Below, piece by piece: positions 45,606-55,835 of a DNA stretch of 64,000 nt. How positions within the stretch are numbered: the first letter of the stretch is position 1; each line of letters begins with the position of its first letter. The notes beneath the pieces are model-generated. The model saw only the letters and a list, made by a program, of their open reading frames with translations. It did no database searches and was not told where the DNA came from. The DNA comes from Ignavibacteria bacterium (GTDB lineage Bacteria; Bacteroidota; Ignavibacteria; Ignavibacteriales; Ignavibacteriaceae), in the NCBI GenBank assembly GCA_030684555.1, contig JAUXVN010000040.1:124001-188000 (forward strand). Reading direction: 5' to 3'. A program made the position numbers and the translations under genes.

Positions 45606-46769
45606 ATTAATAATTGTTTTCTTGTTGTGTTGGATGGAGTTGGTGTAGGTGAGTTACCAGATGCAAATCTTTATGGAGATGCCGGCAGCAATACTCTTGC
45701 AAATATAGCAGCAACAATCGGAGGATTAAATTTACCCAATTTAGAAAAATTGGGGTTGGGTAATATTATTGATATATCAGGAATCTTAAAAGTGCCATCA
45801 CCGTCAGCAGCATTCGGTAAATTGGCAGAGATATCTAAAGGAAAGGATTCAACTACAGGTCACTGGGAATTAGCCGGATTACCAGTTGATTTTGATTTTT
45901 CTTATTATCCAAACGGATTTCCAAAACATTTAACTGACTTGTTCCTTGTTAAAACAGGGTGTGAAGGATTTTTGGGTAATAAACCTGCTTCAGGTACCGA
46001 GATAATTAAAGAATTAGGAGATGAGCACTGTAGAACCGGATTTCCAATTATTTATACTTCTGCTGATTCAGTTTTTCAGATAGCCGCCCATGAAGATGTA
46101 ATTCCCCTTGATAGATTAGATGTGATTTGTAAAATAACAAGGAATGAAGTATTAAAATTTCCGGAAGTTGTTGGGAGAGTGATTTCTCGTCCATTTATTG
46201 GGACAAGTGGAAATTATACACGCACGACCAATAGACATGACTATTCAATTGATCCACACGGTAAAACAATTTTTAATTTTCTTCAAGAAAATTCAATCAC
46301 AACAATAAGTATTGGTAAAGTGAGTGATCTTTTTAATCATCAAGGAATTGATTTGAAATTTCCAACAAAATCGAATAAAGAAGGTTGTGACAAACTTATT
46401 TCAGTATCGTCTAATTATAGTAACACCTTTGTTTTTACTAATCTTGTTGATTTTGATGTCTACTACGGTCATCGCAATGATCCAATCGGTTTTGCAAATG
46501 CGCTGAAACAATTTGATGAATTTTTACCAGGTTTTATTTCAAAATTAGATGAAAGTGATTTGTTAATTCTAACGGCAGATCACGGAAACGATCCTACAAC
46601 TCCAAGTACGGATCATAGCAGGGAATATATACCGCTGATTGTTTATGGTGAAATGGTTGATAGGAAGGATTTGGGTGTTCGTGAAACTTTTGCCGATGTT
46701 GGTAAATCTATCGGTGACTTTTTCAATATTAAAAATTCACTAACCGGGAAAAGTTTTCTTAATGAATAA
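45606..46769 (+). CDS. deoB: Phosphopentomutase, probable ATT start
   Basis: A DeoB-type alkaline-phosphatase-superfamily mutase that interconverts (deoxy)ribose 1- and 5-phosphates. Motifs: metal Asp in VVLDGVGVGELPDA, phosphorylated Thr in GKDSTTGHWE, metal ligands in DFDVYYGHR, ADHGND and TDHSRE. The first ATG-like codon is GTG at 45627, but that would leave only one residue before the metal Asp and delete the first beta strand. No ATG, GTG or TTG lies further upstream in frame. ATT at 45606 follows AGAGG by five bases and gives MNNCFLVVLDGVG, which fits the family. The gene precedes two microcompartment vertex genes. Confidence 0.85.
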   Translation: MNNCFLVVLDGVGVGELPDANLYGDAGSNTLANIAATIGGLNLPNLEKLGLGNIIDISGILKVPSPSAAFGKLAEISKGKDSTTGHWELAGLPVDFDFSYYPNGFPKHLTDLFLVKTGCEGFLGNKPASGTEIIKELGDEHCRTGFPIIYTSADSVFQIAAHEDVIPLDRLDVICKITRNEVLKFPEVVGRVISRPFIGTSGNYTRTTNRHDYSIDPHGKTIFNFLQENSITTISIGKVSDLFNHQGIDLKFPTKSNKEGCDKLISVSSNYSNTFVFTNLVDFDVYYGHRNDPIGFANALKQFDEFLPGFISKLDESDLLILTADHGNDPTTPSTDHSREYIPLIVYGEMVDRKDLGVRETFADVGKSIGDFFNIKNSLTGKSFLNE

Positions 46770-46822
46770 AAATTTTGAAATTGCGTACGATAATATTTTA
46801 TTAAAGGATTTGAGGTACTAAA

Positions 46823-47101
46823 ATGATTTTAGGGAAAGTAATAGGGACTGTTTGGTCAACAAGAAAAGATGAAAATTTAGTCGGTTCAAAGTTTTTAATA
46901 GTAAGGCAACTGGACTTAAAATTTAATGAGAAAGATAATTTTGTTATCGCAGTAGATAGTGTCGGTGCCGGAGAAGGTGAAATCGTCTTAGTTGCAACTG
47001 GTAGTTCTGCACGTCAAACAAGTATTACCAAAAACAAACCGATAGATGCAGTTATAATGGCTATAGTTGATAAACTCGACACCCCAAATCTTAGTAATTA
47101 A
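46823..47101 (+). CDS. Bacterial microcompartment vertex protein (EutN/CcmL, BMC-P) 1
   Basis: 92 residues covering one complete EutN_CcmL domain: MILGKVIGTVWSTRKDENLVG at the start, LIVRQLDL, then AVDSVGAGEGEIVLVATGSSAR and PIDAVIMAIVDKLD. Such proteins form pentamers that cap the vertices of icosahedral protein shells. It lies 53 bp after the phosphopentomutase, so co-transcription is likely. The hexameric shell proteins (BMC-H, BMC-T) that any shell needs are not in this window. Confidence 0.9.
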   Translation: MILGKVIGTVWSTRKDENLVGSKFLIVRQLDLKFNEKDNFVIAVDSVGAGEGEIVLVATGSSARQTSITKNKPIDAVIMAIVDKLDTPNLSN

Positions 47102-47118
47102 TAATTAAACCCAAAAAT

Positions 47119-47202
47119 ATGGAATTGAATAAAGAACAAATTTTCATTAACTTTCCACGCTTAAATGTTTTATCAGAAACGATTAGATATTTATGTATTT
47201 AG
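47119..47202 (+). CDS. Short ORF overlapping the second BMC-P gene
   Basis: 27 codons, MELNKEQIFINFPRLNVLSE then TIRYLCI, ending at TAG 47200-47202, inside the start of the next gene (ATG 47193). It has no clear ribosome-binding site. It could be a translational coupler for the second vertex gene, or chance. Low confidence that it is translated. Confidence 0.25.
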   Translation: MELNKEQIFINFPRLNVLSETIRYLCI

Positions 47203-47462
47203 GCAAAGTAATCGGAAACATCTGGGCAACAAAAAAATATCCGGCTGTCCATAGTCTTAAAATGATGTTAATACAGCCGTTAGATGCAGAACAAAATAAT
47301 TCTGGCGAACCTTTAATTGCAATTGATACTGTCGGTTCAGGACCAGGGGAGATAGTTTTCTACATAACAGCTTCTGAAGCGGTTATTCCTTTACCGGTAG
47401 ATTTTGCCCCTGTTGATGCATCGATAGTCGGGATAGTTGATAGTATAAATATTGAAAATTAA
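47193..47462 (+). CDS. Bacterial microcompartment vertex protein (EutN/CcmL, BMC-P) 2
   Basis: 89 residues, again a single EutN_CcmL domain: MYLGKVIGNIWATKKYP, MLIQPLDAEQ, AIDTVGSGPGEIVFYITASEA and PVDASIVGIVD. It differs substantially from the first copy, so this is an old duplication or two specialised vertex types, as seen in many microcompartment loci. It lacks a strong ribosome-binding site, and a 27-codon ORF overlaps its start. rpoD follows 19 bp later. Confidence 0.9.
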   Translation: MYLGKVIGNIWATKKYPAVHSLKMMLIQPLDAEQNNSGEPLIAIDTVGSGPGEIVFYITASEAVIPLPVDFAPVDASIVGIVDSINIEN

Positions 47463-47481
47463 AATAAATGAGGTAGTGTAA

Positions 47482-48336
47482 GTGAGAATAACTAAGCAAT
47501 ATACCAATCGGGAGAGTCAATCTCTTGATAAATATTTGCAGGAAATAGGTAAAGTTGATCTGTTAACCCCGGAGCAGGAAATTGAGTTAGCAATTAGGAT
47601 CAAAAAAGGGGATCAGTTAGCTCTTGAGGGATTAACGAAAGCGAATTTAAGATTCGTTGTGAGTGTTGCAAAACAATATCAAAACCAGGGACTTTCACTT
47701 GGTGACTTGATTAATGAAGGCAACTTAGGTTTGATTAAAGCCGCAAAAAGATTTGATGAAACTCGCGGTTTTAAATTTATTTCATATGCTGTTTGGTGGA
47801 TTCGCCAGTCAATTCTACAAGCGTTGGCTGAACAATCACGAATTGTCCGATTACCTCTAAATAGAGTTGGAGCTTTAAATAAAATCGGGAAAGCATACAG
47901 CAACCTCGAACAAGAATTTGAACGTGAACCTAGTGCTGCAGAATTAGCAACCGAATTAGAAATGGATGTTAATGAAGTAGCCGATACATTGAAAATTTCT
48001 GGGAGACACGTTTCAATGGATGCTCCTTTTGCTCAGGGTGAAGACAATAGACTGCTTGATGTTTTACAGAATGACCAGCAACCTTCTCCCGATTCAATTT
48101 TAATGACAGAATCTTTAAAACAAGAAATTGAAAGAGCACTTTCGACACTAACAGAAAGAGAAGCTGAAGTAATAAAACTTTATTTTGGTTTAAACAAAGA
48201 ACATTCATTAACTCTTGAAGAAATTGGTGAGCGTTTTAATCTTACTCGTGAAAGAGTTCGCCAAATAAAAGAAAAAGCGATTAGAAGATTAAGACATGCT
48301 TCACGCAGTAAGAATTTAAGAGCTTATCTCGGATGA
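47482..48336 (+). CDS. rpoD: Primary RNA polymerase sigma factor, short FCB type
   Basis: 284 residues from GTG 47482. Region 1.2 begins [20 protein letters not shown]. Region 2 has [20 protein letters not shown] and [16 protein letters not shown] (-10 recognition). Region 4 has [15 protein letters not shown] and [20 protein letters not shown] (-35 helix-turn-helix). The N-terminal region 1.1 is absent, as in the Bacteroidetes/Chlorobi group, and the length matches that group's housekeeping sigma. It overlaps the next gene by four bases (ATGA). Confidence 0.93.
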
Positions 48337-54263: not shown

Positions 54264-55835
54264 ATGAAATTAGACAAAGATCTTTTATCAATCCAGGAAG
54301 CAAGAGATTTAGCAAAAGCCGCAAAGGATGCTCAACTTGAGTTTAAACATTTTAGTCAGGAGCAAGTTGACAAAATAGTCAAGGCAATGGCTGAGGCAGG
54401 TTATTCTGAAGCCGAACGGCTGGCTAAATTTGCTGCAGATGAAAGTGGTTTTGGAAGATGGCAGGATAAGGTTATTAAAAATCAATTCGGGACAAAAAAT
54501 GTTTATGAATCAATCAAAGATTTAAAAACAGTAGGTGTTATTGATAGTCAAGCGAATGGAAAGATTTTAAAAATAGCAGAACCTATGGGAGTTGTGTGTG
54601 CACTTGTACCTTCTACAAATCCAACTTCAACCGCGATGTTTAAAGCGCTTATTTCTGTTAAATGTAGAAATGGAATGGTTGCAAGTCCTCATCCCCGGAC
54701 TGTTAATTCAACGGTAGAAGCGATTCGAGTATTATCAAATGCCGCAGAAAAAGCAGGTGCTCCAAAGGGTTTGTTGCAATGTATGTCAATTCCAACAATA
54801 GAGGGAACAGAAGCTCTAATGCGTGATAAAAATATTGCAGTTATTTTGGCAACGGGGAGTAATCCTATGGTTAAAGCTGCATATAGTTCAGGTAAACCTG
54901 CATACGGAGTTGGTTCAGGAAATGTTCCTGCATTTATTGAGAGAACTGCAAATTATAAAAAAGCTGTTGCCGATATTATTTATGGAACAACTTTCGATAA
55001 TGGAACGCTCTGCTCCTCGGAACAAGCTATGATTGTCGATCGCTCATTAAAAGAAAAAGTTATATCCGAAGCAAAAAAACAAGGCGGCTATTTTTTAAAT
55101 GAAGACGAGAAGAAAAAATTAGCGAATACAATTATTCTAAATAAGGGGGGTTTGAACCCTGAAATTGTTGGAAAGTCAGCAAGATGGATTGCTGATTATG
55201 CGGGTTTTTCTGTTGATGAAAACACTCGGGTCTTAATTGCATTTTGTGAAGAGGTCGGTAGGCACGAACCACTTTCTGTTGAAAAACTATCACCTATTTT
55301 AGCGTTTTATACAGTAGATGGGTGGTTAGAAGGATGTCATAAATGTCTCGACTTACTTAACTTCGGCGGGGTGGGACATACTATGGTAATCCACTCAAAC
55401 GATTCTGAAATAATTATGAAATTTGCTCTTGAAAAACCTGCATTTAGAATCTTAGTTAATACAGTATCATCAATAGGAGCTGTAGGTTATACAACCGCAT
55501 TAGCGCCATCATTAACTTTAGGTTCGGGTACATGGGGTGGTTCAATTATTAGTGAAAATGTTACTGCAAAACACCTAATGAATATTAAGTATCTTGCATA
55601 CGAAACAAATCCAGTTAATGAGTCTTTTGGAATAACTTCAACTGTCGGTGAAACGAATTCGAAAAATTTTTTGTTCGAAATAGAGGAGCGATTAAAAGCA
55701 AGAGCTGGGAATCCTATTTACAAAAATGAAATTAAATCAAACTCAAATTTAAATAGTGATGGTGATAAAAAATTTGGAACTGGATTATCAGAAGTGGAAT
55801 TAAATAAATTGATTAATGAATTTAAAAAACGATAG
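54264..55835 (+). CDS. CoA-acylating aldehyde dehydrogenase with C-terminal encapsulation-type tail
   Basis: 523 residues of the EutE/PduP group: aldehyde + CoA + NAD to acyl-CoA + NADH. Conserved parts include [17 protein letters not shown] (coenzyme site), [12 protein letters not shown], catalytic Cys250 in [11 protein letters not shown], and GSGTWGGS near residue 420. The core ends near GNPIYKNE (about 489). A flexible Asn/Ser/Asp/Gly linker (490-507) is followed by a short amphipathic helix [16 protein letters not shown] (508-523) with hydrophobic residues spaced i, i+3, i+4. That is the layout of microcompartment encapsulation peptides. The two BMC-P shell genes lie 7 kb away. Confidence 0.88.

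Follow-up and report, generated by a model that had tools for sequence, protein, structure and literature searches.

A tailed aldehyde dehydrogenase and a tagged deoxyribose-phosphate aldolase suggest a substrate for dispersed microcompartment shells of Ignavibacteria

Introduction

What might a microcompartment shell enclose when its genes are scattered and the enzymes that it would hold are mostly encoded elsewhere? The question is raised by a gene for an aldehyde dehydrogenase (ALDH) in a 64,000-nucleotide stretch of DNA from an Ignavibacteria bacterium, the whole of which is referred to here as the window. A preliminary description of this DNA had proposed that the enzyme forms acetyl-CoA and that a C-terminal linker and helix target it to a shell whose vertex genes lie about 7 kb away. 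A tail of this kind on the AldDh of a metabolosome is by itself an expected feature. Sutter et al. (2021) listed FRAG1-7 among the microcompartment types lacking an obvious signature enzyme; the traits of these types are scattered shell genes, a BMC-P triplet, Ignavibacteriae hosts and an AldDh that is mostly remote from the shell genes (PMC8217296). We therefore ask whether the tail of this ALDH is likely to be a shell-targeting signal and which enzyme would supply the aldehyde.

Results

The ALDH gene (54264..55835, forward strand) is an intact open reading frame of 523 codons for amino acids, and its product is predicted to be an acylating acetaldehyde dehydrogenase. The protein matches PF00171 and also TIGR02518, acetaldehyde dehydrogenase (acetylating), the latter with a whole-protein score of 626.5 bits that exceeds the cut-off of 620.1 by a narrow margin. 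Its closest matches are Ignavibacteria MAGs, at 59-79% identity, which marks the genome as Ignavibacteriaceae-like, and the enzyme is also encoded in a cultured relative, Stygiobacter electus (L063). A putative catalytic cysteine, Cys250, lies within the motif NGTLCSSEQ and is invariant in 50 homologues. The solved acylating ALDHs of Listeria (3k9d) and Geobacillus (5j78/5j7i) have the same fold, with 50-53% identity in the core. The earlier assignment of an acetyl-CoA-forming, acylating activity is thus supported by family membership, although TIGR02518 clears its cut-off only barely.

The alignment with 3k9d and 5j78 spans residues ~3-448 of the window ALDH and stops at 445-450, so that the linker and helix of the tail have no counterpart in these structures. 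Beyond the solved core there is a conserved segment (residues 473-483; 55680..55712, forward strand), which overlaps a helix modelled at 469-481 and ends in an AGN triplet (481-483) that is invariant in the homologues. This is followed by a flexible linker of variable length (residues 484-503; 55713..55772, forward strand) and by an encapsulation-peptide-like helix at the C-terminus (residues 504-523; 55773..55832, forward strand). Eighty related loci from named assemblies were collected, two of which were cut at contig ends, and 77 of the 78 complete proteins, the exception being that of L082, retain the helix, with the motif xGxGISExEIxKIIKEFK closing the chain after a variable linker. The mean majority frequency was 0.82 in the core, fell to 0.30 in the linker and rose again to 0.71 in the tail helix (504-521), where the most conserved positions were F520 (99%), G505 (95%) and position 516 (92%). 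The tail was also seen in nearly all ALDH orthologues read from genomes of the class. In a shuffle test of amphipathicity, a consensus-like tail was weakly significant (p ~0.02) and the tail of the window ALDH was within chance (p ~0.39); hence, the argument for the tail rests on its conservation and not on a helical wheel. What goes beyond chance, as read from the alignment, is a predicted helix that is conserved and is preceded by a linker that is not.

An AlphaFold2 model, built on an alignment of 50 rows, agrees with this profile: residues 479-503 have a pLDDT below 50, while residues 510-522 form a helix with a pLDDT of ~60-79. The linker-helix architecture of the preliminary description is therefore borne out by both the conservation profile and the model. 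Its division between linker and helix was also essentially right, but the end of the core had been placed at residue 489, which is about 5 residues too late. Packing of the tail into the core, which would have spoken against a targeting role, is not what the model predicts; to judge from the pLDDT, a disordered linker probably separates the core from the helix. The N-terminal encapsulation peptide of PduP is likewise a short helix with a flexible linker, located at the opposite terminus. In that peptide hydrophobic residues are found at positions i, i+3, i+4 and i+7.

Two shell vertex genes are indeed present in the window, both encoding BMC-P proteins (EutN_CcmL) on the forward strand (46823..47101, PF03319 109 bits; 47193..47462, PF03319 91 bits), at a distance of 6.8 kb from the ALDH gene. 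The genome as a whole has three BMC-P genes, two BMC-H genes and one tandem BMC-T gene, and these are scattered over four contigs (C9, C26, C75 and C127). The BMC-P triplet is split, with two genes on C9 and the third on C127; both BMC-H genes are on C75, and the tandem BMC-T gene adjoins a gene for a PduS-like protein on C26. As a consequence of this scatter, the distance between the ALDH and BMC-P genes is weak evidence. The reported spacing of 7 kb was accurate, but its use as an argument for targeting does not hold up well, because L016, the nearest of the 80 homologues, is alone in sharing the arrangement, and synteny was dropped as a main argument. In 13 other listed genomes the ALDH and BMC-P genes are separated by 72 bp to 36 kb, and in three more by at least 180 kb; in several families the separation is 11-36 kb. 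Proximity of the ALDH gene to shell genes is suggestive at most. In many relatives, L030, L044, L057 and L164 among them, the ALDH gene is preceded by LiaF-like genes and by genes for a LytS-like kinase and for a regulator of LytTR-like type, and is followed by an ABC ATPase gene.

A groove in PduA that is lined by the motifs AMVKAA and AATDAGAAAA has been proposed as the binding site of encapsulation peptides (PMC11157265), and both motifs are found in the short BMC-H protein of this genome. The second BMC-H protein (L008:8524-9576) is extended at its C-terminus by a long acidic stretch whose last residues are LNVHQLRKLARQTPNFPIQGREISKANRTTLLDLFNKLV, and long BMC-H frames of about 165-366 amino acids occur beside short ones across the class.

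A survey of 159 genomes of the class, with an orthologue threshold of E <1e-140, linked the ALDH to shell genes. ALDH orthologues were present in 57 genomes, every one of which also has BMC-P and BMC-H genes, while BMC-P genes were found in 62 genomes overall. This association is highly significant by Fisher's exact test (p ~1e-37), a value that ignores shared ancestry, of which the co-occurrence is partly a product. Five genomes have BMC-P genes but not the orthologue: three (G119, G065 and G096) have BMC loci of other kinds, in which the ALDH is a different one, and two (G035 and G045) are incomplete bins. There is also a contrast within one family, where G130 has neither ALDH nor BMC-P and G119, with its different BMC locus, has no ALDH. 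The only ALDH match in a genome without BMC-P genes (G042) is 44% identical and lacks the tail motif; indeed, all three paralogues at 42-44% identity (G042, G069 and G158) lack it. An equal occurrence of the tail in relatives without microcompartments, which would have undermined the targeting proposal, is thus not observed. A more distant relative, in G085, is 50% identical and has a different yet canonical-looking tail, SPQEIERVVRQVVNEIL; in this genome the genes for RpiB, DeoC, BMC-P, ALDH and BMC-H are adjacent, forming an SPU-type cluster, and RpiB, DeoC and ALDH all have helix-like terminal extensions. Targeting of the ALDH to the shell via its tail is supported by these comparisons of sequences.

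The poor synteny directed the search for a source of acetaldehyde to the rest of the genome. The deoxyribose-phosphate aldolase of this genome (DeoC; PF01791, contig C152) has a 67-residue N-terminal extension starting MNSSNIQKVVSQVFMEKAL. Some DeoC start codons are uncertain, and 55 N-termini could be read from the 57 genomes with a tailed ALDH; all 55 have the extension. A hydrophobic pattern typical of encapsulation peptides, I..VV..VL, fits 51 of these 55, with G004, G085, G125 and G135 not conforming strictly. Alignments with DeoC proteins from genomes without BMC-P genes begin only at about residue 57-69, leaving the extension without a counterpart, and DeoC also lacks the extension in G119 and G065, which have other shell types. 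The exceptions among genomes without a shell are G139, a 78% complete bin with a tagged DeoC and no shell hits, and G042, which is ambiguous. In 15 listed genomes, 3.6-17 kb separate the DeoC gene from a shell gene. A tree of the DeoC core has many poorly supported forks. In it the untagged protein of G119 falls among those of the Ignavibacteriaceae, and this position suggests, although not firmly, that the extension was lost. Within the extension there is a segment containing cysteines (L177 and related loci), which reads CKDGICxDGLC in many relatives and CQGDSCKGW here.

A profile built on the ALDH tail was used to look for further cargo in this genome and gave only a chance match in Ffh; the helix matched in L097 is GSGTSIQEVNKLIKQF, in the M-domain of Ffh (SRP54), and calls for caution in motif searches. 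As the profile misses DeoC, it is the pattern of the DeoC helix that makes it encapsulation-peptide-like; homology with the tail of the ALDH is not detectable. RpiB was rejected as a tagged partner here, having no such helix and, in its place, an N-terminal ITEADI..ITPLAADRIKILGL segment. PduL (PF06130) has no match in this genome, is present in only 4 of the 159 genomes of the class and was ruled out as a partner enzyme by its absence. The class II aldolase of this genome is untagged and was likewise set aside as a partner.

Directly upstream of the BMC-P pair in the window is deoB, encoding phosphopentomutase (45627..46769, forward strand, with an uncertain start codon; TIGR01696, 458.8 bits against a cut-off of 341). 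Its product would supply deoxyribose 5-phosphate to the shell pathway. The order deoB, BMC-P, BMC-P, rpoD, followed by an NlpC/P60 gene (window positions 45627-48336), recurs in L016, L166 and L167 and partly in L162.

Discussion

From the enzyme families, the tail and its conservation, the set of shell genes, their co-occurrence with the ALDH and the tagged DeoC, all of which were read in the sequences, we infer how a shell might be loaded, what its substrate would be and how flux would run through it. The reading that we regard as probable is a dispersed, FRAG-type metabolosome for deoxyribose phosphate with the ALDH as its core enzyme. Deoxyribose 1-phosphate derived from nucleosides would be converted to deoxyribose 5-phosphate by DeoB and then cleaved to acetaldehyde by DeoC, which bears its own encapsulation-peptide-like helix at the N-terminus. 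The tailed ALDH would convert acetaldehyde, NAD+ and CoA to acetyl-CoA, as expected from its family, with the aldehyde kept inside the shell. The C-terminal helix, on its disordered linker, would act as an encapsulation peptide and dock the enzyme to the BMC-H tiles on their inward-facing side. The presence of a tagged DeoC in a genome with this ALDH is a new observation and, on the evidence of its N-terminus, suggests a purpose for the dispersed shell. In the literature searched, which was mostly outside subscription journals, we found no assignment of DeoC or of a substrate to FRAG shells.

The main rival to the deoxyribose-phosphate pathway accepts the ALDH as shell cargo but has it act on lactaldehyde, or another aldehyde, released by a class II aldolase from fuculose or rhamnulose 1-phosphate, as in PVM-like systems. 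Orthologues of this aldolase have an encapsulation-peptide-like C-terminal tail in families f4, f6, f13, f18, f19, f22 and f23, the gene sits between those for ALDH and BMC-P in Melioribacteraceae (L164), and the locus of Melioribacter roseus was called PVM-like by Axen et al. in 2014 (PMC4207490). We nevertheless consider this explanation unlikely for the window ALDH, as the aldolase has no tail in its own genome or in families f1, f2, f12 and f17, is often found in genomes lacking BMC-P genes as well and would be paired with an enzyme that falls in the acetaldehyde family TIGR02518. Moreover, where some relatives (L158, L159 and L268) have PVM-like loci, these encode a distinct ALDH of their own that bears a helix at the N-terminus. 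The tailed aldolases of the outer families do indicate that acetaldehyde may not be the sole or main substrate. An example of these tails, found in L247-L266 and missing in the window genome and the nearer families, is FTESDVYEILKRVLQRLNEK. The separate PVM-like loci of L158, L159 and L268 also contain PduL and a class II aldolase.

It is quite improbable that the tail serves instead to condense the ALDH with DeoC by peptide-peptide interaction and not to dock on a shell. Encapsulation peptides alone are able to drive condensation of cargo (PMC12339742), and the helices on the ALDH and DeoC are similar in pattern; however, condensation alone would leave the strict co-occurrence with shell genes unexplained, and the two roles are compatible. 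Least probable of all is that the enzyme is cytosolic and that the tail, unrelated to any shell, serves the structure or oligomerisation of this ALDH lineage. The tail does track the lineage, and none of the 159 genomes yielded a shell-less orthologue that would break the association. Against this reading, relatives of known structure fold with no tail of this type, the linker is predicted to be disordered, the gene occurs with a shell in 57 of 57 genomes and, inside a BMC cluster, the relative in G085 bears another helix in the equivalent position.

More tentatively, and with appreciably less confidence than for the deoxyribose-phosphate metabolosome of this genome, the FRAG shells of Ignavibacteria may in general be acetaldehyde organelles of a dispersed kind. 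They would scavenge deoxyribose phosphate (together with a second sugar phosphate in those outer families whose class II aldolase is tagged), operate without PduL and have their genes among housekeeping operons. Should the apparent meaning of the tail and of the DeoC tag prove correct, FRAG shells would gain a substrate open to testing, namely deoxyribose derived from DNA, and comparison of terminal peptides across genomes could reveal cargo whose genes are not clustered. The main interest lies in the proposal of a substrate for a shell type that previously had none.

Comparison with known microcompartments places this system closest to types with scattered genes. The canonical metabolosome core includes the phosphotransacylase PduL, which the window genome lacks. 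PVM-like systems have a tagged aldolase, whereas the class II aldolase here, whose gene and one for BMC-P are about 4 kb apart on C127, is without a tail. The sugar phosphate utilization (SPU) type is alike in its acetaldehyde chemistry of DeoC and AldDh, and the G085 relative is found in such a cluster; it differs in that the genes here are unclustered (DeoC on C152, RpiB on C34, and the ALDH with two BMC-P genes on C9), RpiB is untagged and there is no PduL. The likeness to the FRAG types extends to the scatter of the shell genes, the BMC-P triplet, the Ignavibacteriae host and the remote AldDh, and it is by these features that the likeness is drawn. Where FRAG1-7 had no obvious signature enzyme, we propose the tagged DeoC as a candidate for that role.
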